Assembly: GCA_958510825.1 (NCBI GenBank)
Contig: OY294048.1
Location: 19,733,589-19,797,588 of the forward strand
Direction: 5' to 3'
From: Brachypterus glaber
Taxonomy: Eukaryota; Arthropoda; Insecta; Coleoptera; Kateretidae
DNA: 64,000 nt
The position numbers were made by a program, and so were the translations under genes. Every line of letters begins with the position of its first letter. The first letter of the stretch is position 1. The notes beneath the pieces were generated by a model. The model was given only the letters and a program-made list of their open reading frames with translations, searched no databases and was not told the origin of the DNA. Below, one piece after another: positions 560 to 54,135 of this stretch.

Positions 560-1090
560 TTTTATAGTGAAATTAAATATTATTTTTTGCAAAACAGTTA
601 ATTAATAGAAAAATGTTAAATCTAATTAGTTTCGTGTAGTTTAATTACCAAATGAATAATAGCTAGGGATTTTGTATTCTAGTTTTTATGCGAAAATAAA
701 CGAACGCAATTACAGAAACTAATTAATCAGAACTCGACGCTTTTCACTAATGCAGCGCGAACATTGTGAAAATCTGCAATTTTCATGTCAGCTTATATGT
801 TTCATTTTATACAAATGTCACAAAATCCAATTAATTTCATGCCGGTTTTAAATAAAGGAGGAAGGAAAGCACAAGGTTGTATATTAAGGCTTCCGACAGT
901 ATAATAAAAAATACTGCTTTTGGAGAGGTTACGGATATTTCCAGTCGAGCTCGGGAGCGAGATCGACAACCGTAATCACCGTAAAAGCAGTTTTCGTCCA
1001 TATGTCATAGACTATTTTTTATTCGATTTTGGTAAACTTAAAAACTAAAATTGTACCTTTGTCAGGAAATATTATATATTCCATCAATCT
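560..1090. other. AT-rich intergenic stretch with one dispersed motif
   Basis: No gene seen. Around 905-1015 there is a structured stretch in which ACTGCTTTT is answered by AAAAGCAG. It is followed by TTTTCGTCC and a CATAGACTATTTTTTATTCGA motif. A close relative of the latter part recurs near 25820-25860, so it is probably a fragment of a dispersed repeat. Confidence 0.4.
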
Positions 1091-1107
1091 ATTTTCTAAT
1101 CATCGCA

Positions 1108-1174
1108 CAGTGATATTGGTAGACTGCAGTTTCAGGCTGCTGGCCCTCTTCAGTACCAAGAGTCAATCACACTG
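1108..1174 (-). ncRNA. Type I hammerhead ribozyme (self-cleaving RNA motif)
   Basis: Read on the minus strand, all core hammerhead elements occur in order. Stem I 5' strand is UUGGUA (1154-1159). The core CUGAAGA (1147-1153) fits the CUGANGA consensus. Stem II is GGGC/GCCU (one G-U pair) with loop CAGCA (1134-1146). GAAA lies at 1130-1133. Stem III is the self-complementary ACUGCAGU (1123-1130). The cleavage base C is at 1122, followed by UACCAA (1116-1121), which pairs perfectly with the stem I 5' strand. Outer stem I continues as GUGAU/AUCAC past an asymmetric internal loop. Very short stem III is typical of type I hammerheads in Penelope-like elements, SINEs and retrozymes, which are thought to act as dimers. 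Predicted cleavage is between 1122 and 1121. Only one copy is seen in this window. No reverse transcriptase lies next to it, so the host element is unknown. Confidence 0.85.
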
Positions 1175-1364
1175 TACAATAATAAGAATGAATGAATGAA
1201 AATTTAATATTTAATAAATATTTTTATAATTTTGATTAAGATTAAAAATTCCTGTCTTTATCCAATGTCGACTGCTTTACTTAAACTTTTTGACGACATT
1301 TTTTGTCCACGCTGATAAAAATTTTATGTAAAATTACGTTTAATAAATACGGTTATTTTGTGAC

Positions 1365-2590
1365 CATACCTCTCCTCGCCTAGTTATGCAATTAACTAAA
1401 AGGTAAAAAAACTGACCATGGATCCTCGTAGTTTAAGGTCCGGACATTATAGAACCATTCGCGGTTAAATCTCATCAGCTAGTATTTGGTAGATAATGTC
1501 AAAAGTTCATCTGCAGACTTCCTCACCATCATGAACCAATTTTCCATCTAACCAAAAGGCAATTTCTGTAGTATATTTTACAAGGAATCTAAATGCGTTT
1601 CAAAATTTTGACTATCTATTTCCGTTTTTGAGAAAAAAGCAAAAACCCGAATGTCAAAATTCGTTTTAGGGTAACTTTGGACATGCGTAAAAAATATATT
1701 AAATATCACACCATCTTCTATACAGTATTAAAGACACCTAGAATACCCAAACTTCCGTAATTTATAATACAAACATTGATGATGGCCAAATATTCTAGTT
1801 TAAAGTATGTTTCCCATAGTTAATTAAATTTAAATGTAGTCATTTTATTTTGTAGACAAGTGTATTTTTTTATTAAAACAGTAGTTCTTAAAAGGTTTAA
1901 TTTTTAATTTTTATTATAATATCAATTATTATTATTGTAGCTTATTAAAAACTTTGTAGGTTTAGATTTACCAATAAAAATTTTTCTTTCGTGTACATTT
2001 TATCTGTTTTTTTCATTGGAATTGGTATAAGACTTTATTTTGAACAAAGTGTTTGGCAAAATTAGTTTTGCGTACAGTCGAGTATATCTGGTCGAGAACC
2101 ACTGCTTCAATAAAATTGATTTAGTCAAAAAATGTGACAGATTACTTATCAACATAGTTACATTAGTATAACTGGATTTAATAAATACTGGTTGAATGAA
2201 TACTCGCTCATATAATAAAATAGAAACCTTGACAAATATTTTATTATGAATTTCGATACATTAAGAACTCAAGTTGTTTTTAATACTAAGTAGAATCTGG
2301 TAAGACGGATTTTGACGTTTTATTTTAAGCTCGACCGTTAAATTTTGCAAAAAGATTCAGAATCCTTAAAAAATATACTATAAGAATCGCCTTTTGGTTA
2401 GTTAGAAAACTGGTTGATGATGGTAAGGGAGTCTGCAGGTGAACTTTTAACATTATCTACCAAATACGAGCTGCTGAGATTTAACTGCTAATGGTTCTAT
2501 AATGTCCAGACATTGTATTACGAGGATCCATGGTCAGTTTTTCTTTACCTTTTAGTTAATATCATAACTAGTCGAGGAGAGGTGTGTGAA
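1365..2590. mobile_element. Foldback-type element with ~300-bp inverted arms
   Basis: The sequence from about 1368 to 1640 returns as its reverse complement from about 2590 back to 2310. Matches include CTCTCCTCG, ACTGACCATGGATCCTCG, TCTGCAGACT/AGTCTGCAG and AACCAAAAGGC. Arm identity is roughly 80 percent by eye. The ~650-bp loop is AT-rich with no transposase. I could not fix a target duplication. It is probably a non-autonomous DNA transposon or an inverted duplication. Confidence 0.75.
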
Positions 2591-3279: not shown

Positions 3280-4200
3280 AAGAATTGTCAGTCGATCGGT
3301 CGATCGGTCTGTCCGGGAAATTTTGTGTGCACGATAACTTAAGAACGCTTTAAGCTAGAGACTAGAAATTTTGCATACAGGTATGTTACCAAAAGTTCTC
3401 GCTCGGGATTGTTTTTTTGTGAACATTGGGTAGCAGCAAGGGGGAGGGGCAAATGGGAAAAAATACATTTTTTTATAAGATTTGAAAATTGCTATATGTA
3501 TAGAGGTTTTTGAGGTTGCTAAAATTGAATCTGATAATAAGAATTTTCTAACCCCACCCCCGAGGGGGTGAGGGGGTAAATATTTTTAAATATTTTCAAT
3601 ATTTTCTTCAAAATTGGTATATATGGATTTTTGGTGGCGACGAATATGCTGATAATAATTTTTTTTAATTTCACCCCCTGAGGGGTGGGGGGTAGTTTTT
3701 GTGAAAACTGGTATATTGGGGTTTTTGAGGTTGCTGAAAGTAAATCTGATTATAAAAAAAATCTAACTCCACCTAAAAGGGGCGGAGGGTAGTTTTCGTG
3801 AAAATTTATATATTGGGGGTTTTCAGGTTACTAAAAGTGAATTTGATAATAAAAAAATCTTACTCTACCCCTGAGGCGGCCGGGGGTAGTTTTCTTGAAA
3901 ATTTATATATTGGGGTCGCTAAAACTGAATCTTATAATAAATTTTTTCAAATTTCACCCCCTGAGGGATGGGGGGTAATTTTGTGAAAATTAGTACATTA
4001 GGCTTTTTAAGGTCGCTGAAAGAGAATCTGACAATAAAAAAACTCTAACTCCACCCCTAAGAGGCGTCGGGTAGTTTTCGTGAAAATTAGTATATTTTTA
4101 AGGTTGCTAAAAGTAAATCTGATAATAAAAAATCCATTTTATGCGAGGAGGTTAGAAATGGGAAAGCTCTTTTACTGGGAATTGTATTTTTCGTTGTCTA
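3280..4200 (+). repeat. ~98-bp tandem repeat array, copy B, ending in hairpin
   Basis: A leader with GATCGGTCGATCGGTCTGTCCG and a TTCTCGCTCGGGATTG block precedes at least six units spaced 86-98 bases, of the same type as at 60-550. It ends with hairpin 4134-4161 and CTCTTTTACTGGG. The leader block TTGGGATTGTTTTT..GTGAACATTGGGT also starts copy A at base 1, so the two arrays share both ends. Confidence 0.7.
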
Positions 4201-15692: not shown

Positions 15693-16188
15693 TGTGGTAA
15701 AACAATATTTTCACACTGTTCTTTAACTTTGGTTATGTTTACATTCTGTCAAATTACCCTAATTTAGGTGACCTTGACCATTTAGGGATATTTAATTAAT
15801 AAGGAAATTAGGTTACCAATATATTTTGCTGGAACTACCTGTTCACCTGTTGTATTGTATCTTTGACATTCTAACCGATTCATACAGTTCTATTTTTATA
15901 ACAGTCATCCTTAGGGATAAAATATTTATCTATTAATAAATATTATCCTGGTGATTAGGTAAGTCTTATTTAATTTATATTTTTATTAAATCCTAATTAT
16001 TTATATTAGTTTTAGTTTGGAACTTATTTATGTTCATACATAACATCGGTCACCTAACTCTGGGTATTTTGAAATTGCTTCCTACAATAAATGAACTCTG
16101 ATCTACATTACTGATTTTCTTATACGAAACCACGACCCCCATTTGAACTATACGGCGCCCGGCATTCCTTTTTTCCCAGTTCAACATA
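15693..16188 (+). repeat. 5' LTR (496 bp)
   Basis: Begins TGTGGTAAAACAATATT. The target duplication ATCT fits an end at ..CAACATA rather than the canonical ..CAACA two bases earlier. The same ambiguity exists at the 3' LTR. Confidence 0.9.
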
Positions 16189-16289
16189 TCTGGCACTCAC
16201 CGTGAGGCATAGAGACATACTGTAGATACGTCCAAAGCTAGGGTATAAAAGAAAACAGTGGTAGTATTAGAGTATACAGTGAAAACAAA

Positions 16290-17558
16290 ATGCCTATCGA
16301 CCATTCACCAACCAATGGCAAGACGAGAAGTGGAAATTCATACAGAGGTCCTCGTAGAGAGCAATCACTCGACTTCTTGGGTTTTGAAGGTGGTTCAGAA
16401 GCATTGGCTTCTGCATTACCAACAACTACTGCAGTATCAACAACTTCCAGCCATGTCACCAGAGTACAACCCGTACTTACTGCTGGGATGTCAACAACTT
16501 CACTACAAGAGCAGCCGCCACCATTATCACCACAGGTTACACAACACCAACAAAATAATCAAGGTATTTATATTCCAATTTCACATTCACCTCCAACAAT
16601 GGCAACTTTACCATCCAATGCAAGTGGCGTTGGGCCACAGAGATTTGAGCATACTACAAGTACTGGGGCAGTCCCTAGAAGAAATTATTCAGGAGCTAGT
16701 AGTAATTTAAGTTATAATTTACCTTATTATCATGTAGATTTGCCACATAGACCTCCTCCAGCTTATAGTAGCTTAAACGTAAACAACAATTTCCCTAGTT
16801 TACCTCCACAGGGTTATAACACAAATTCATATGTACAGGTACCACAAAATGCACAGCCCTGTATACCGGTACAAATCCCAAGTGCCGAAACACTTTCTAG
16901 CATTAAAAAATTGTTACCAGTGTTTTCTGAAAACGGTGAAATTCACCCTTGTGACTTTATAAATAGACTGGAAAAAACACTACAAAATTACAATATTCCA
17001 TTTCATATGTTTTCACCAGAATTACCAGACCTATTTATCGGGCCTTCAAAGCACTGGATACAAGCACTATTATATAATTTTAATGATTTTAACGCATTTA
17101 AAAACAGTTTTATTGATAATTTTTGGGGATTTTCTCAACAAAACAAGGTTAAACTCCAACTTGATTTGGGAAAGTACAATAGAACTACCAGCTATTCGAA
17201 CTACTTTTTGGGCCAAGTGTCAAAAGCTAGATTTTTAAACCCTCCATATTTAGAACGGGAACTTATAGCAATAATTAGTAGACACTTTCCTCCAACCATA
17301 AGTTGTTCTTTAATAGGAAGTAGATGTATAGCGGAAGTTTTAGAAAGGCTTCGTTTAGCGGATTCATTTGAAACGGTAAACATGAGACATCCCTCTTCTT
17401 CTTCTTCTTCTGCGCAACCTTCTTCGCAACCGGCAGTCGTTCCACATAGGAATTTCTCAAATAAAAATTTCAATAAAAATATTTCTCACATTCAAATCGA
17501 TAATATCGATAACATTAGCGATAATATCGATAATTTAGAACAGAATGAGGGAAACTAA
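16290..17558 (+). CDS. Gag polyprotein of Ty3/Gypsy element
   Basis: The 422-residue product would form the cytoplasmic particle and package element RNA. The first ~200 residues are low-complexity and rich in Pro, Ser, Thr and Gln (several PPP, QQ and SS runs). Residues ~200-365, beginning SIKKLLPVFSENGEIHPCDF and including KHWIQALLYNFNDF, look like a Gypsy capsid domain. A Ser run (SSSSSSSAQPSSQP) and an Asn/Ile/Asp-rich tail (HIQIDNIDNISDN) follow. No CCHC zinc knuckle is present, so RNA binding must use other basic residues. The ATG at 16290 is the first good start, about 100 nt after the LTR. The frame stops at TAA 17556-17558, inside a -1 frameshift cassette. Recognition rests on position and capsid-like pattern. 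Confidence 0.85.
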   Translation: MPIDHSPTNGKTRSGNSYRGPRREQSLDFLGFEGGSEALASALPTTTAVSTTSSHVTRVQPVLTAGMSTTSLQEQPPPLSPQVTQHQQNNQGIYIPISHSPPTMATLPSNASGVGPQRFEHTTSTGAVPRRNYSGASSNLSYNLPYYHVDLPHRPPPAYSSLNVNNNFPSLPPQGYNTNSYVQVPQNAQPCIPVQIPSAETLSSIKKLLPVFSENGEIHPCDFINRLEKTLQNYNIPFHMFSPELPDLFIGPSKHWIQALLYNFNDFNAFKNSFIDNFWGFSQQNKVKLQLDLGKYNRTTSYSNYFLGQVSKARFLNPPYLERELIAIISRHFPPTISCSLIGSRCIAEVLERLRLADSFETVNMRHPSSSSSSAQPSSQPAVVPHRNFSNKNFNKNISHIQIDNIDNISDNIDNLEQNEGN

Positions 17559-17595
17559 TTTTACCTAAAGATATAAGCAGTGTATCTTTAGGTAA
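17549..17595 (+). promoter_or_regulatory. Programmed -1 ribosomal frameshift signal (gag to pol)
   Basis: In the gag frame the last sense codons read as the slippery heptamer G GGA AAC (17549-17555), followed at once by the TAA stop. Five bases further on (17561) a perfect 13-bp stem begins: TTACCTAAAGATA (17561-17573) pairs with TATCTTTAGGTAA (17583-17595) around a 9-nt loop. Shifting back one base enters the pol frame, which is open from 17549. G GGA AAC is an established -1 slippery site in some retroviruses. Confidence 0.9.
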
Positions 17596-19273
17596 CATTT
17601 CCACAACTGCAAAACCTAACCTCACAAATTTTGTAAACAATCCCAAGAGTGAGTTACAAAAATGTGATTTTAACCATCAACCAATTTTAAGTGATATAAG
17701 TCGAACCCCTGTAATTACCATCAACATAAATCACACCAACTATCCTTGCTTAGTTGACAGCGGTAGCGAGTGTTGTGCTTTTTCTACAGTGGTAGAAAAT
17801 TCTGTCACATCCATGTCTATTCCTATGTTTCCAGTAAATGGTATTAGGGTTTCTGGAGCTTTTAGGAATAAAAACCGAAAAGTCACCCATCAGGCCCTAG
17901 TTTCATTTTCTTTAGAAGATGAGGTTTTTGATTTCGAGATGCTTTACATCCCAGACTTAGTCTTTCCAGTTATCCTGGGTTGTGATTTTCTAAGAACTTT
18001 TAAGGTAAGCATAAGTTTAGAACAAGAATGCATTTTTATAAAACATAATAATAAAGTATTAACCATCCCTGAAACTAAAACATTGCACACTTATACTGCC
18101 CTTGAAGATTCCCCTTTAACAAAAGTATGTGCTATATCAAAGTCCCCTCCTATTATGCAACCTGATCATTACTATCAAGTAAGTGATGAGGATATTGATG
18201 CTGTGGTTAGAGAGACTCCACTTTCTCCTGAACAAAAAGCTAAATTTAGACACTTACTTTGTAAGCATAAAAGTGTTTTTTCAGAAAAACCTGGTCTTAC
18301 GTCTGAGTATGTCCATTCAATAACCCTTTTTGATTACACACCCTTTAATCAAAAGAGTTATCCCATTCCCATTGCACACAGGCCTGCTGTAGATGCTGAA
18401 ATTCAGCGTATGCTGGACTTCAACATAATTGAACGTACTTCTTCATCTGCTTTTAGCAGCCCCCTATGTACCGCGGTCCGCAAAAACGGAACGGTAAGAG
18501 TTTGCCTTGATGCAAGGAAGCTTAACAGTGTAATGGAACCCGATACAGAACTCCCAAACAAAATTCAAGAGCTTTTGCAAACTTTACCTCCTGAAGTTCG
18601 TACTATTTCGAGTTTGGACATGACCAATGGCTACTGGCAAGTTCAGCTAAGGCCTGAGGACAGAAAATATACTGGATTTCTATATAATGGTAAATCGTAT
18701 CATTTTAAAGTACTCCCTTTTGGTCTAAAGACCGCAGTTAGTAGTTTCACTCGGGCTATGTCCGTTATTTTAGGTCCAGAATTTTCCGAATTCATCCGTA
18801 TTTACATAGATGATGTCCTTGTACTGAGCTCTGGGGTAGATGCGCACCTGCAACACTTAGATAGTGTGCTATCCAGATTTGCACAAACCGGATTTACACT
18901 ACGGTTAAATAAGTGTAAATTTTTTAGGAAGGAAATTCAATTTTTAGGCTACATCCTTTCTGAAAGTGGCCTTCAAAGTGATTCTTCCAGGGTATCTGCT
19001 GTAGTCAACTACCCAGTTCCACAAAATGTAAAACAATTACAGGCGTGGCTAGGGTTGACCAACTATGACAGGGTATTCTGTGAAAATTATGCTACTGTGG
19101 CAGAGCCCTTATTTTCCCTCCTGAGAAAAAAAACTAAATGGACTTGGGGTCCTGCTCAAGCCCAATCATTTAATAACCTGAAAGAGCTGATTAAACAAGA
19201 AGTACTTTTGTTTCATCCAATATTCTCTCTCCCTTTCTGGGTACAATGTGACAGTTGGCTGATGTTGGCTTAG
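17549..19273 (+). CDS. Pol part 1: protease, reverse transcriptase, start of RNase H
   Basis: Open for 574 codons in the -1 frame relative to gag, expressed only by frameshifting. The aspartic protease has LVDSGSECCAFS (catalytic Asp codon 70; DSGS instead of the usual DTGA/DSGA) and the closing ILGCDFL (codon ~142). The reverse transcriptase follows. VRVCLDARKLN holds an RT motif (codon ~321), SSLDMTNGYWQV the first catalytic Asp (~357), and YIDD (codons 419-422) the metal-binding pair. The thumb and connection (FLGYILSESG, AWLGLTNYDRVF) lead to WVQCDS (codon ~568), the start of RNase H. There the frame is lost and a stop comes at 19271-19273. Function known from the family: synthesis of element cDNA in cytoplasmic particles. 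Confidence 0.92.
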   Translation, partial: GKLILPKDISSVSLGNISTTAKPNLTNFVNNPKSELQKCDFNHQPILSDISRTPVITININHTNYPCLVDSGSECCAFSTVVENSVTSMSIPMFPVNGIRVSGAFRNKNRKVTHQALVSFSLEDEVFDFEMLYIPDLVFPVILGCDFLRTFKVSISLEQECIFIKHNNKVLTIPETKTLHTYTALEDSPLTKVCAISKSPPIMQPDHYYQVSDEDIDAVVRETPLSPEQKAKFRHLLCKHKSVFSEKPGLTSEYVHSITLFDYTPFNQKSYPIPIAHRPAVDAEIQRMLDFNIIERTSSSAFSSPLCTAVRKNGTVRVCLDARKLNSVMEPDTELPNKIQELLQTLPPEVRTISSLDMTNGYWQVQLRPEDRKYTGFLYNGKSYHFKVLPFGLKTAVSSFTRAMSVILGPEFSEFIRIYIDDVLVLSSGVDAHLQHLDSVLSRFAQTGFTLRLNKCKFFRKEIQFLGYILSESGLQSDSSRVSAVVNYPVPQNVKQLQAWLGLTNYDRVFCENYATVAEPLFSLLRKKTKWTWGPAQAQSFNNLKELIKQEVLLFHPIFSLPFWVQCDSWLMLA

Positions 19274-20883
19274 GTGCTCAGCTTTTTCAGATTGTTAATG
19301 GTCATAAAAAAGTAGTGGCATATGCCAGTAGAGTTCTTCTCCCCAGGGAGCGTGCCTATTGTTCCTCAGAAAAGGAGGCCCTCAGTGTAGTCTGGGCGCT
19401 CGAAAAATGGCGAGTTTTTTTAATCGGCCGTCATTTTTATTGCCTCAGCGACAACAGGGCATTAAGTTATCTTAATACCTGTCGTCTCCTCACACCTAGA
19501 CTATCCCGTTGGTGCTTATCACTACAGGATTTTGATTTTACTATCAAGCATGTAGCCGGTAAAGACAATATTGTAGCCGATACTTTATCCAGGTATCCTA
19601 GTTCTAGGCTACCAACCCCTTATGATCGCTGCTTTAAAATATTAGGCCAAACCATACAGCTCGATAGTGTTTTCTGTAGAAATCTGAACTCCCTACCTGA
19701 AGACCAACGAAATGATCCCAAGCTTTTTCAAATTCGTGAAAAAGTCCAACAGGACCCAGAAGCTCACCCCAGATTTGTGATGCATGAAGATATACTTTAC
19801 ATCAGACAATCCGAAGGTGAGCCTTACCTACTTTGCGTTCCAAAAAATCGTATACCCGATTTTATTAGAGCCTATCATGCAGGCATGGGTCATTTTGGGG
19901 TTTTTAAGACCCATGCTGGAATTAAGCGAGAGGTATGGTGGCAAAATATGGCGCGAGATATTAAGCAAGAGCTAAAAGCATGCCAAATTTGCCAACTGGT
20001 AAAATCTGGTCCTTTGCCGAACCCACCGTTGAAAGCAATTATTCCAGAAGCTCCAGGAGAGCTTGTGGCACTCGATTTTTACGGGCCCTTGCCCCGATCA
20101 CGTGGGTCCGTCGAATACATTTGCGTTGTACTCGACGTTTTTTCAAAATTTGTCACTCTTTACCCTCTGAAAAATGCAACTTGCAAAAATACGCTCAAAA
20201 AGCTTCAGGAGGATTATTTTATTAAATACTCAATCCCGAAAGCAATTTTGACGGACCACGGGACCCAATTCACGGCCGACCTTTGGTCCGCAACCCTCGA
20301 GCCTCTGGGCATAAAAGTCATAAAGTCTTCGGTGCGCCATCCGTGTAGTAATCCATCCGAACGTATAATGAAAGAGCTCTCTAGGCTCTTCCGAACATTT
20401 TGCCACGACCGACACACCAGGTGGGCCCTAGAAATTGATAAATTTGCGAATTTTCTCAATAACATAACGCACCTGTCCACCGGGTATTCCCCCAAAGAAT
20501 TGCACCTGGGTGAATCCCCTGACTTACCACTTAGAGAAATATTAAATTTTCCGGTTGATACAAAAAACCTAGATAATCACGTAAAATTATATTTTGCAAA
20601 GGAGAGTTTGTTAAGTAGTGCCTTACGTCGAAACGCACACACCCATTCTAGGAAATTAGCTACATTTCATGTAGGTGATAAGGTATTACTTAGGGCAAAC
20701 CCTACTTCGTCTGCAATAGAGGGACGAATAAAAAAATGGATGCTCCTCTATGAGGGCCCATATAAAATAAAAAAGATCATTGATCTATCCACATATATTT
20801 TAAGTAATCCTGAAGATGAAAATGAAAGAGGAATGTTTCATGCATGCCATTTGAAAAAGTATAACCCGGAGTCTGAACTTTGA
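19255..20883 (+). CDS. Pol part 2: RNase H remainder and integrase
   Basis: Continues Pol in the next -1 frame. Residues 1-~110 are RNase H (VGLGAQLFQ, VAYASRVL, SSEKEALSVVWALEKWR, SDNRALSYL, GKDNIVADTLSR). The integrase zinc domain follows as HAGMGH..H and CQICQ (residues ~208-245). The catalytic core has Asp 274 (VALDFYGPL), Asp 334 (LTDHGTQFT) and Glu 369 (HPCSNPSERI). The last spacing is 34 residues, one less than the usual 35. The C-terminus (KVLLRANP..EGPYKIKKII..HACHLKKY) is the barrel that ends Gypsy Pol. No chromodomain is seen. The GTG/ATG near 19255 is not a true start. The frame begins by loss of one base within RNase H near 19253-19258, so this copy probably makes no full Pol unless the base is a sequencing error. 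Confidence 0.9.
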   Translation: MADVGLGAQLFQIVNGHKKVVAYASRVLLPRERAYCSSEKEALSVVWALEKWRVFLIGRHFYCLSDNRALSYLNTCRLLTPRLSRWCLSLQDFDFTIKHVAGKDNIVADTLSRYPSSRLPTPYDRCFKILGQTIQLDSVFCRNLNSLPEDQRNDPKLFQIREKVQQDPEAHPRFVMHEDILYIRQSEGEPYLLCVPKNRIPDFIRAYHAGMGHFGVFKTHAGIKREVWWQNMARDIKQELKACQICQLVKSGPLPNPPLKAIIPEAPGELVALDFYGPLPRSRGSVEYICVVLDVFSKFVTLYPLKNATCKNTLKKLQEDYFIKYSIPKAILTDHGTQFTADLWSATLEPLGIKVIKSSVRHPCSNPSERIMKELSRLFRTFCHDRHTRWALEIDKFANFLNNITHLSTGYSPKELHLGESPDLPLREILNFPVDTKNLDNHVKLYFAKESLLSSALRRNAHTHSRKLATFHVGDKVLLRANPTSSAIEGRIKKWMLLYEGPYKIKKIIDLSTYILSNPEDENERGMFHACHLKKYNPESEL

Positions 20884-20977
20884 AACAAACCTTCTACCTT
20901 ACTTTTATAACCTTTTCTGTTTTGAGTTTATCCCGTACAGTTTTTTTTTAGTAAAAAAAAAAAAGCGTTAACGAGCT

Positions 20978-20990
20978 AAGGGGGGGTAGA
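20978..20990 (+). other. Polypurine tract
   Basis: A purine run AAGGGGGGG followed by TAGA directly precedes the 3' LTR at 20991. Confidence 0.75.
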
Positions 20991-21486
20991 TGTGGTAAAA
21001 CAATATTTTCACACTGTTCTTTAACTTTGGTTATGTTTACATTCTGTCAAATTACCCTAATTTAGGTGACCTTGACCATTTAGGGATATTTAATTAATAA
21101 GGAAATTAGGTTACCAATATATTTTGCTGGAACTACCTGTTCACCTGTTGTATTGTATCTTTGACATTCTAACCGATTCATACAGTTCTATTTTTATAAC
21201 AGTCATCCTTAGGGATAAAATATTTATCTATTAATAAATATTATCCTGGTGATTAGGTAAGTCTTATTTAATTTATATTTTTATTAAATCCTAATTATTT
21301 ATATTAGTTTTAGTTTGGAACTTATTTATGTTCATACATAACATCGGTCACCTAACTCTGGGTATTTTGAAATTGCTTCCTACAATAAATGAACTCTGAT
21401 CTACATTACTGATTTTCTTATACGAAACCACGACCCCCATTTGAACTATACGGCGCCCGGCATTCCTTTTTTCCCAGTTCAACATA
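20991..21486 (+). repeat. 3' LTR (496 bp)
   Basis: No difference from the 5' LTR seen by eye. Followed by target duplication ATCT. Confidence 0.9.
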
Positions 21487-27226: not shown

Positions 27227-28268
27227 CCGGATATTTCAGGAAGGTGGTTCACCCCCTTACCTTTTTTATTTTTTTAGGTAGGTTCGTGAAATTTGCATTT
27301 AAGCTATATTATGTATAATTTAGGATTCTTTGACGTAGTTGAAATTTTTTTAACACTTTCGGTTTCGCCGGAAATGAATCGAACTTGGAAATGGAACACC
27401 CTGTATATTTTTAAATATTTTGATTCAGAAATCAATTCTGAGAACAAGCATTTGTCACTTGTTAATTTTTGACAGGTCATGGAATTTTTAATTTAAATTT
27501 TTATTTTAAATCTAGAGTGCCTTGAATTAGCTTATTCCCTTAATTTTTGGTCTAGTACCTTAAGAAAAATACTATTTTGACTTTTTCCCAAAACTCTAAA
27601 TTTGGTGGGCTCTTAAAAGTTCCAAAATCATACTTTGGTTTGAAACACCCTGTATATTTTTACATATTTCGATTCAGAAATCAATTCTGAGAACAAACAT
27701 TTTTCACTTGTCAATTTTTGACAAGTCATGTAATTTTTAATTTAAATTTTTATTTTAAATCTAGAGTGCCTTGAATTAGCTTATTCGCTTAATTTTTGGT
27801 CTAGTACCTTAAGAAAAATACTATTTTGACTTTTTCCCAAAACTATAAATTTGGTGGGCTCTTAAAAGTTCCAAAATCATACTTTGGTCCATAACTTATT
27901 TTTTTTTTCATACGGAAAGAGGGTGGCTCAGGTTAAAATAAATAGTTTATTTGGAAAAATTTGGCATTAAAACACTAGATTTAAAATAAAAATTTAAATA
28001 AAAAATGACATGACCTGTCAAAAAGTGACAAGTGACACATTCTTGTTCTCAGAATTGATTTCTGAATCAAAATATGTAAATATATACGGAGTGTTTCATT
28101 TAAAAATCAAAAGTTTGATTCATTTTCGGCGAAACCGGAAGCGCCAAAAAAATTCTACTATGTCAAAAAATCCAAAATTATATATAATCTAGTTTCTGAA
28201 AATTGCAAGATCCTATCTAAAAAAATAAAAAAGTTAAGCGGGGTAAACCACCTTCCTGAAACACCCGG
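27227..28268. mobile_element. 1042-bp TA-flanked palindromic element with internal duplication
   Basis: CCGGATATTTCAGGAAGGTGG at the left matches CCACCTTCCTGAAACACCCGG at the right. TA lies at 27225-27226 and 28269-28270. Inside, a ~245-bp block (ATTCAGAAATCAATTCTGAG..GGGCTCTTAAAAGTTCC) is present twice in tandem (about 27415-27640 and 27665-27890) and once partly inverted (about 27960-28085). No coding sequence seen. Confidence 0.8.
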
Positions 28269-29419: not shown

Positions 29420-30146
29420 CAGAGCGGTCCAAAAGTCACCCCCCGCTTCTTAACTTTTAAACACGTTGAGATATCGACTTTAAATTTGGAACTTTTAAAT
29501 AAGCCAACTTAAACTATCTTTTAGCATATATTTAATACTTTCAGTTCTTAAAATGTGGGCAGGGGGGCATGGGGGCACATTTTTTTTTAAATGGAAAGGG
29601 GGGTCGTGTAATACATCATTTTAAAGCTTATAAAATTCTCCATTTAACTCCATATTTTTAAATTAAAAAAAAATAATTTTCGGGTTTAAAATGGGTTTGA
29701 AAATGGGTATTAATGTCAAAATTCTTCTAAAAAAAAACAAATAATTTTTTTAAAATGCCTAATTTCATCATAAAAAAATGTTAATTATACTTTTAAACTA
29801 ATTTTAGTTGACATAAATAAAAATTTATAAAAAAAAAACTTTAAAAATCGAATGTTTTAGCACAAAAAATTGAAAAATCAAAACCTTAAAAAACATTTTT
29901 AAAAAATTTAAAAATGTTAGTTTAAATAGAGAATTTTATAAGCTTTAAAATGATGTATCACACGACCTCCCTTTCCCTTTAAAAAAATGTCCCCCCATGC
30001 CCCCCTGCCCACATTTTAAGAGCTGAAAATATCAAATATATGCTAAAAGATAGTTTAAGTTGTCTTATTAAGGAGTTCTAAATTTTAAATCGATATCTAA
30101 ACTCGCTCAAAAGTTAAAAGGGGGGGGTGACTTTTGGACCGCACTG
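29420..30146. mobile_element. 727-bp TA-flanked element, CAGAGCGGTCCAAAAGTCACC family
   Basis: Left end CAGAGCGGTCCAAAAGTCACC, right end GGTGACTTTTGGACCGCACTG, TA on both sides (29418-29419, 30147-30148). Interior arms share CTTAAACTATCTTTTAGCATATATTT and AAAATGTGGGCAGGGGGGCATG. No coding capacity. A half copy lies at 52357-52465. Confidence 0.85.
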
Positions 30147-30654
30147 TATGTATAAAATAGTGTTAAGGATATTTGAAATTGAAATCGTTAGTTCACTTGA
30201 CTGCTTTCGATTCTAAAGTTTAAGAATGTTGTGACATAAATAAAAATTTATAAAAAAAAACTTTAAAAATAGAATGTTTTAGCACAAACAATTGAAAAAT
30301 CAAAACCTTAAGAAACATTTTTAAAAAATTTAAAAATGTTAGTTTAAATAGAGAATTTTATAAGCTTTAAAATGATGTATCACACGACCTCCCTTTCCGT
30401 TTAAAAAAATGTCCCCCCATGCCCCCCTGCCCACATTTTAAGAGCTGAAAATATCAAATATATGCTAAAAGATAGTTTAAGTTGTCTTATTTAAGAGTTC
30501 TAAATTTTAAATCGATATCTAAACTCGCTCAAAAGTTAAAAGGGGGGGGGTGACTTTTGGACCGCACTGTATGTATAAAATAGTGTTAAGGATATTTGAA
30601 ATTGAAATCGTTAGTTCACTTGACTGTTTTCGATTCTAAAGTTTAAGAATGTTG
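29811..30654 (+). repeat. Tandem duplication, period ~422 bp
   Basis: The right half of the preceding element plus ~85 bp of flank (29811-30232) is repeated nearly exactly at 30233-30654, including a second GGTGACTTTTGGACCGCACTG end. It arose after the element inserted, because flank is included. Confidence 0.85.
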
Positions 30655-31470
30655 TGAATACTCAGGAAACGTAAGTGTACTACACCAAAAGGGCCACTTC
30701 AGTTTGTGTAGAATTTTTTATAAGCATAGTTATGCTTATAACTTTAGTCATATCATGATCTTTAGGAATACTGATATCAGTATTTCTGAAAGGCACCTAT
30801 GAATCAAATATCATCAAAAAATGATTAAAAAATATGACGATGAAACATTTAGGTAAAAGGTATATTAATATAATGTATTAACAGGTAATTCGTAAGTATA
30901 CTTACTACTTGTTTTTTGAAAATATTTCTTTTGAGATTTGATTTTTGTCCGTGATAATCAGTCATCGGCGAATTTCCAGTGCTCGCATAGGCGCCGCGTC
31001 GATTGTAGCGATGACGCGAGGTTTTAAATATTTACATTTTTATTTCTTGTTATCTTGATTTTTTTTAATGATTCCATTTAAACGAGTTAGGTGGGAAAAA
31101 AAGTTATCAATAAATAAAAATTAAAAACTTTCGTATTCTTAAAAGATAAAAATCGATTATCGGATTCTTCTTCGAAAAACACCGGTATATATACATTTAT
31201 AGTTAATATGTATAGTCAATATTGTTGTCTGCAACAAATTAGCATTTTACAATTTTCCAAATCTTCACACAGCAAATAACACACAGTAGATCTTTGATTT
31301 AATAGTTCTATTGTAATATTTAATGTTTGTTAGGTAATTGTATTGTATGCAATTATAATTGCAATTCATTGTATATTTTGTGTTTTTTAAATTCCTATTT
31401 TTATATATTTTGTGTATTATTTCATATAATTATTTAACTAAATCACTAATACTTAATTTAAAACATAACT
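30655..31470. other. AT-rich intergenic stretch
   Basis: No gene seen. A small GC-richer patch near 30960-31020 (GCGAATTTCCAGTGCTCGCATAG and GCGCCGCGTCGATTG) has no recognisable content. Confidence 0.4.
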
Positions 31471-53006: not shown

Positions 53007-54135
53007 CAGGGTGTCTGAAAAAGCAGGTCAAACTTAACAAAATTAAAATAGCCATAACTCTTTTTTTTTAAATGACACCCTACATTTTTTTTTGTTTAAA
53101 TAGAGAATTCAATTTTCTTTAAAATAAGTATAGGATACCCTATACCTAACTTTAACCGTTTTCGAGCTATTTGCAAATTAATGTGAAAAAGAAGTATTTT
53201 GCAGTATTTCTGCAATTACGTAAATTTTTAAAATTGTATTGTATTTTTATTTCTTTTAACCTAAATGTTATTGTTCTTATCGTGATAAATTAGTGTAAAA
53301 TAATGGCAGAGGCTTATTCTTACCCTGTTATTTTGGATTTATTTTCTATTTTTGGTGAAAATGATAAAATAATTAGTAGAACCTGCAGAAACTTTAATAC
53401 AAAATATCCTGATTTACCAAGAATGTCATGTAAAAAATTTAGAAGAATACACAAAAATTTTTCGCAATTTGGAAAAGAAAATGCAGTGAAATCTCTTACG
53501 AAACCAATTACAAACAACGAAGATAACGAAGTCAATGTTTTGGGTTACTTTTATGCATATCCACATGCCTCAATTCCTGCAGCTAGTTACGACTTGGGAA
53601 TTTCCTATTCAAGCATCCAAAGAATTTTAAAAAACCACAAGATGCACGATTACAAAAAGCAAAAAATACAGGCCTTAAAACCTAATGATTTTCAAAATAG
53701 AGTGGACTTTTGTGAAAATCTTTTGATAAATATTCAAGAAAAACAAAACTTTTTAAAAAGAATAATTTGGACGGACGAGGCTAAATTTTCTCAACAGGGT
53801 ATTTTTAACAGAAGAAATGTACACTACTGGGCGCATGAAAATCCAGTTTTAAGGTAAATATAATGATCTTTGAGGTAAATAAATAAAAATCGATTAATTT
53901 TTCTGGCCTATTTTATAAAATATAACAAATTTTAACAGAAATACGGCTTTTTCACAATAATTTGCAAATAGCTCAAAAACGGTTAAAGTTAGGTATAGGG
54001 TATCCTATACTTATTTTAAAGCAAATTTAATTCTCTATTTAACCAAATAAAAAAAAATGTAGGGTGCCATTTAAAAAAAATGAGTTATGGCTATATTAAA
54101 TTTGTTAGATTTGACCTGCTTTTTCAGACACCCTG
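53007..54135 (+). mobile_element. Inner 1129-bp TA-flanked Tc1/mariner-type element
   Basis: CAGGGTGTCTGAAAAAGCAGG at the left, CCTGCTTTTTCAGACACCCTG (with one difference) at the right, TA at 53005-53006 and 54136-54137. TIRs are ~200 bp. It contains the truncated transposase frame 53303-53857 in sense orientation. Confidence 0.85.
53303..53857 (+). pseudogene. Truncated Tc1/mariner-type transposase, N-terminal part
   Basis: Open for 184 codons from an ATG at 53303. Residues 1-45 hold FGENDKIISRTCRNFNTKYPDLPRMS, the DUF4817-like helical start common in insect mariner-type proteins. Residues ~60-130 are a helix-turn-helix region (ASIPAASYDLGISYSSIQRILKNH) that would bind the TIR. Residues ~155-182 carry IIWTDEAKFSQQGIFNRRNVHYWAHENP, with the first catalytic Asp (TDEAKF). 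The frame ends at TAA 53855-53857 with no second Asp or last acidic residue, and only ~80 bp remain before the right TIR. The catalytic half has been deleted, so it cannot cut DNA. It might still bind TIRs if expressed. Confidence 0.88.

Follow-up and report, generated by a model that had tools for sequence, protein, structure and literature searches.

The window analysed here, a 64,000-nt stretch of contig OY294048.1 from the beetle Brachypterus glaber, carries a type I hammerhead ribozyme motif on its minus strand (Table 1). All core positions are present when the motif is read from the sequence: the strand runs UUGGUA-CUGAAGA-GGGC(CAGCA)GCCU-GAA-ACUGCAGU-C and, across the predicted cut, UACCAA. 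The original prediction for this DNA had described a complete type I hammerhead at this place, with a cut between 1122 and 1121 and a minimal, self-complementary helix III, and the core, its position, the cut site and the helix were all confirmed. A generic pattern for type I hammerheads (CUGANGA, helix II of at least 4 bp, GAA, A15.1-U16.1, H17 and helix I of 5 bp), drafted after the site was known, matched the two strands of the window once, at this site, and gave no match on either strand of 300 simulated windows with the same nearest-neighbour composition (Markov-1). The exact 27-base ribozyme core had no match in a viral contig collection. Judged by its sequence, the hammerhead motif in the window is real.

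Table 1 Features of the putative ribozyme and of the insert that carries it, in window coordinates
Feature	Position	Strand	Basis
Type I hammerhead ribozyme motif	1108..1174	-	Sequence; pattern and simulation; conservation over 83 regions
Core CUGAAGA (C3 to A9)	1147..1153	-	Sequence
Helix II GGGC/GCCU, loop CAGCA	1134..1146	-	Sequence
Core GAA and A15.1	1130..1133 (GAA, 1133-1131)	-	Sequence
Helix III, self-complementary ACUGCAGU	1123..1130	-	Sequence
Predicted cut between C17 (1122) and U1.1 (1121)	1121..1122	-	Core position
Proximal helix I, 5′ strand UUGGUA, pairs with 1121-1116	1154..1159	-	Sequence
Proximal helix I, 3′ strand UACCAA	1116..1121	-	Sequence
Distal helix I	1174-1170 with 1112-1108	-	Sequence
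Whole insert, solitary head-to-head copy; long end 1260 (unit 98), short end 1067 (unit 61)	1067..1260	-	Family match; mapped as L001 1668-1861
Inverted piece, unit positions 8-98, reads as unit on +	1167..1260	+	79% identity to L021 unit
Direct piece spanning the ribozyme cut, unit positions 309 to 61	1067..1166	-	91.5% identity to L021 unit
Short AATG/TTCA repeat inside the inverted piece	about 1186..1205	+	Alignment with solo copy

Several other repeats share the window. Diverged tandem repeats of ~98 bp with a GC-rich palindromic core, ACCCCC...GGGGGT, flank the insert on both sides (74-507 and 3455-4190). A long inverted repeat adjoins it (1365-1612 and 2337-2586, with arms of ~206 and 47 nt that are 84% and 89% complementary) and resembles the termini of a further element ~1.2 kb long. 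A Ty3-type LTR retrotransposon occupies 15693-21290, with frames containing reverse transcriptase, RNase H and integrase domains and 300-base direct repeats (15693-15992 and 20991-21290) that are 100% identical; it is a recent insertion. There are also two-copy tandem duplications of 249 bp (27395-27888, 96% matches) and 422 bp (29809-30657, 97% matches), and a 184-aa frame (53303-53857) with weak likeness to a Tc3-type transposase helix-turn-helix (24.8 bits; Pfam cut-off 31.5).

The carrier of the motif was defined by searching the genome that contains the window (648,179,424 bases in 842 contigs) at the DNA level, with window positions 900-1400 as the query. The best 40 of 1567 first-look candidates were scored and contained 126 matches; these loci, the window copy and 39 others, were all retrieved and form the family sample used below. 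Ribozyme regions could be aligned at 83 places in 38 of the 40 loci (best of 1567), as expected from the claim that the motif sits in a dispersed repeat with further conserved-core copies in the genome. Across these regions, the 12 core positions were 1.5% divergent from the reference, versus 4.0% at neighbouring positions. A stricter core string was intact at 75 places in 35 of the 40 sampled loci and absent from the other five (L014, L029, L030, L032 and L048). Two frequent variants preserve pairing, with U or C facing G in helix I and C or U facing G at the base of helix II, and helix III is mainly ACUGCAGU or ACUGUCAGU.

From cut to cut, the carrier unit measures 353 nt and has a GC content of 35%. 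TRF, run on three loci, reported head-to-tail arrays of 5.4 (L022), 2.7 (L023) and 4.0 (L016) copies, and array L022 has no listed frame longer than 59 aa. Among 24 units taken from 11 of 14 loci tried, identity was 99.0% for the 24 pairs within an array and 98.0% for the 252 pairs from different arrays. Complete tandem units have the potential to form a stem I of ~22 bp, interrupted by one bulge and one mismatch.

These features resemble those that Cervera and de la Pena (2020) gave for metazoan non-LTR retrozymes: non-coding, low-GC units of 170-400 nt in tandem, a type I hammerhead and target duplications longer than 4 bp, with insects among the named carriers (PMC7229834). The present family has a complete type I core in its sequence, low-GC tandem units within the ~170-400 nt range, no coding capacity and, as set out below, duplications longer than 4 bp. 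Since unit size, GC content, tandem form and ribozyme type all agree, this is a known kind of element, and the suggestion that the carrier was undescribed does not hold. On these sequence characters we assign the carrier to the metazoan non-LTR retrozymes, as a non-coding, non-autonomous retroelement with a unit of ~353 nt. Two differences from the published elements concern kind of evidence and insert form: expression, circles and cleavage are shown in PMC7229834, whereas the family here is defined by sequence, and the available part of that paper does not mention the head-to-head pieces or the pairing of long and short ends described below. The hammerhead satellites of newt and axolotl are similar by description only, as type I tandem repeats of 330-353 nt with a weak helix III; their sequence is reported as species-specific and their cleavage as dimeric (PMC7229834). 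Plant LTR retrozymes, according to the same source, are likewise non-autonomous, carry hammerheads and have a proposed circular RNA stage, but differ in their type III hammerheads, LTRs and 4-bp duplications.

A covariance-model search had been put forward as a check on the ribozyme. In the window, no Rfam hammerhead family was found at the gathering score, nor with E relaxed to 10 over positions 800-1500 or to 5 over its full length, a background-level outcome of the kind that the original prediction had listed as refuting. Loci with well-kept tandem copies behaved alike, none of L021, L022 and L009 giving a hammerhead match at E up to 10, so decay alone does not account for the missing match, and the curated Rfam models appear insensitive to the hammerhead form found here. 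All remaining Rfam matches (RgsA, several microRNA families, tmRNA and others) fell under their gathering scores. Among these, we rejected the L022 match to MIR2599 (56.9 bits, E 2.9e-9; its gathering score is 120), which falls on the long hairpin that this head-to-head insert makes. Minimum-energy folds predicted for the motif differ from the active hammerhead fold, both for a 67-nt stretch (-17.3 kcal/mol for another fold, versus -5.6 for the hammerhead helices, the distal one left out) and for a 78-nt stretch (-25.5, z -2.38, with 8 of 200 shuffles equally good). Energy models of this sort leave out the tertiary contacts of hammerheads.

Mapping the unit onto the 40 loci (best of 1567) gave 43 clusters of hits, 35 head-to-head, eight one-directional and none tail-to-tail, in a sample that leans towards head-to-head inserts because the query is itself head-to-head and includes both arms. 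In the head-to-head clusters the inverted piece comes first and the direct piece last. Ends were counted in 38 inserts, leaving out four clusters shorter than 150 bp and one insert at the edge of its locus (L036). Outer ends at unit positions 44-78 (short) or 85-117 (long) account for 69 of the 76 counted, the long end lying ~45 nt beyond the short one; L020 and L031 are near the border between the two classes. Head-to-head inserts number 34 of the 38, and 31 of these 34 have both ends within the classes. Their ends are paired as one short and one long in 28 cases and as two short in three, with no insert having two long ends. When ends were shuffled, 28 mixed inserts were reached in 1 of 200,000 trials. 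The head-to-head query may disfavour inserts with two short ends; it supplies no reason for the absence of inserts with two long ends.

Flanking sequences point to target site duplication. Exact words of at least 10 bp were common to both sides of 18 of the 38 inserts, versus 9 of 1406 cross-pairs, and were missing in the other 20, the window copy included. As exact words, the duplications measure 10-15 bp; those of L021 and L022, judged by eye, are longer and extend to about 16-19 bp, and one of the two includes a mismatch. Inverted arms with flanking duplications might be taken for a DNA transposon or MITE bounded by terminal inverted repeats, in which the hammerhead is incidental. The inserts have neither the fixed terminal inverted repeats nor the constant duplication length of such elements: their ends spread over two classes, their duplications are unequal, the joint between the arms differs from insert to insert and the arrays vary in unit number. 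We consider this reading very improbable.

The window insert is a solitary copy whose inverted and direct pieces meet at about 1166, a poorly scored junction. Its anatomy revises two further claims of the original prediction. Stem I had been given as 6 bp plus 5 bp; both segments do pair, but the distal one is created by the head-to-head inverted piece. There is a short repeat where the (TTCA)n-like tail was proposed, but it has expanded locally within the inverted arm and does not form a 3′ tail. Helix II base pair 10.1-11.1 is G-U in the window copy and G-C in most copies among the best 40 of 1567 candidates. With this G-U closing and no second ribozyme beside it, the window copy would be unable to release a monomer by itself, and from its sequence it is best seen as an old, diverged, palindromic relic insertion.

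Joints between inverted and direct pieces share 2.75 nt on average, versus 0.75 nt at random joints in the same unit, a figure based on the 28 well-scored joints of 35 (the seven poorly scored ones, including the window joint, were left out) and inflated because many joints fall in the palindromic stem I. At least 2 nt are shared by 22 of the 28, versus 18% of random joints. Joints near the ribozyme cut in L009, L011 and L021 raised the idea that reverse transcription stops there, which was dropped as the other joints are scattered over the unit.

Short matching words at the joints would also suit mobilisation by a LINE-type reverse transcriptase, with the inverted pieces arising by twin priming. 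LINE twin priming likewise gives microhomology-joined inverted pieces together with target duplications. LINEs are, moreover, named among the possible movers of retrozymes (PMC7229834). Under twin priming, however, the inverted piece would be expected to start at arbitrary internal positions. Here, nearly all outer ends are confined to two short intervals of the unit, and the displayed insert flanks showed neither a poly(A)-like nor a LINE-like 3′ end. Because LINE twin priming does not predict two fixed outer ends, it is a weaker rival than a Penelope-type mover, and we regard it as decidedly unlikely.

Two arrays are informative about the template. In L022 (308-2409), the inverted piece and the first two direct units carry one ribozyme variant and the last four units another. 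In L024 (553-2131), units alternate in the order A-B-A-B, with 2-3 differences between like units and 17-22 between unlike ones. These patterns suggest template jumps, and L024 suggests a dimeric, possibly circular template, although DNA duplication could be the source of its alternation. Tandem arrays, and an L024 derived in that way, would fit plain satellite DNA spread by unequal crossing-over, and the lack of an Rfam match would fit a motif that arose by chance. A satellite does not account for short inserts that are dispersed, flanked by duplications and bounded within constant regions of the unit, while the empty simulated windows and a core better kept than its neighbours speak against chance. 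Either version of this explanation is scarcely credible.

The closest parallel to the insert layout is found in Penelope-like elements. An inserted Penelope consists of direct pLTRs plus an inverted pLTR, with a target duplication and an optional 31-bp tail at one end (PMC3846280), and a purified Penelope protein acts on both target strands, cutting and extending them, and starts at two adjacent internal positions that account for the tail (PMC11167929). The present inserts likewise combine direct repeats with a 5′ inverted repeat, a target duplication and a hammerhead in the repeat (PMC3846280, PMC11167929 for the Penelope side). The extra stretch at one end, about 31 bp in Penelope, is about 45 nt here, and the two end classes match the two nearby internal starts of reverse transcription described in PMC11167929. 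Duplications differ in length, 8-10 bp in the published account versus 10-15 bp here, and the likeness to Penelope is one of layout, including the one-end tail. Units here have no coding region, and in their ribozyme stem I is long and interrupted by an internal loop. A GIY-YIG motif had no match in 196,612 bases of retrieved sequence, overlapping loci included; given this result and the lack of any frame longer than 59 aa in L022, we did not file the family as a Penelope element.

The units could nevertheless be the pseudo-LTRs of an autonomous Penelope-like element that multiplied without its coding part, in which case there would be no separate retrozyme family. Hammerheads are present in Penelope pLTRs (PMC11167929), and pLTRs in direct and inverted orientation, a tail at one end, duplications and solo pLTRs are all on record (PMC3846280), a layout like the one seen here. 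The published Penelope hammerheads are minimal, whereas in complete tandem units here stem I is long and contains an internal loop, and the arrays inspected among the best 40 of 1567 candidates consist of near-uniform 353-nt tandem units with no coding part. We therefore think this origin unlikely.

Penelope-like elements have already been proposed as movers of retrozymes on the grounds of shared features and co-occurrence (PMC7229834). Since the inserts share the Penelope layout, with a strict rule of one long and one short end, we take a Penelope-type enzyme as the likely mover of this retrozyme, by analogy with that layout. The window finding is probably explained by a metazoan-type non-LTR retrozyme that passes through cleavage, circle formation and copying in trans, most likely by a Penelope-type enzyme. 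In such a cycle, tandem units would be transcribed and the hammerhead would cut the transcript into 353-nt monomers, sometimes dimers. These would be closed into circles, which a reverse transcriptase acting in trans, most likely of Penelope type, would copy. Copying would begin inside the unit at two alternative sites, roughly 57 and roughly 104 nt past the ribozyme cut, with as a rule one start site used at each cut target strand. The two cDNAs would then be united head-to-head at short matching words, and the staggered target cuts would give rise to the 10-15 bp duplication. That the inserts record retrozyme integration in this particular form, with Penelope-type priming at both cut strands from a proximal and a distal start and cDNAs joined by microhomology, is a reading towards which we lean only slightly.

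We found no description of head-to-head inserts of hammerhead retrotransposons in the open-access literature. Animal retrozymes produce abundant small circular RNAs (PMC7229834), and the enzyme that returns them to the genome has so far only been proposed. In this beetle, near-identical units with readable ends make start sites, strand use and the joining step legible from sequence, and the anatomy of the insert ends makes the question of mobilisation testable. If the proposed integration route is true, the inserts would provide genomic evidence for the mobilisation of retrozymes by Penelope-type enzymes, hitherto argued from co-occurrence, and the rule of exactly one tail would have to be explained by any model of Penelope integration.
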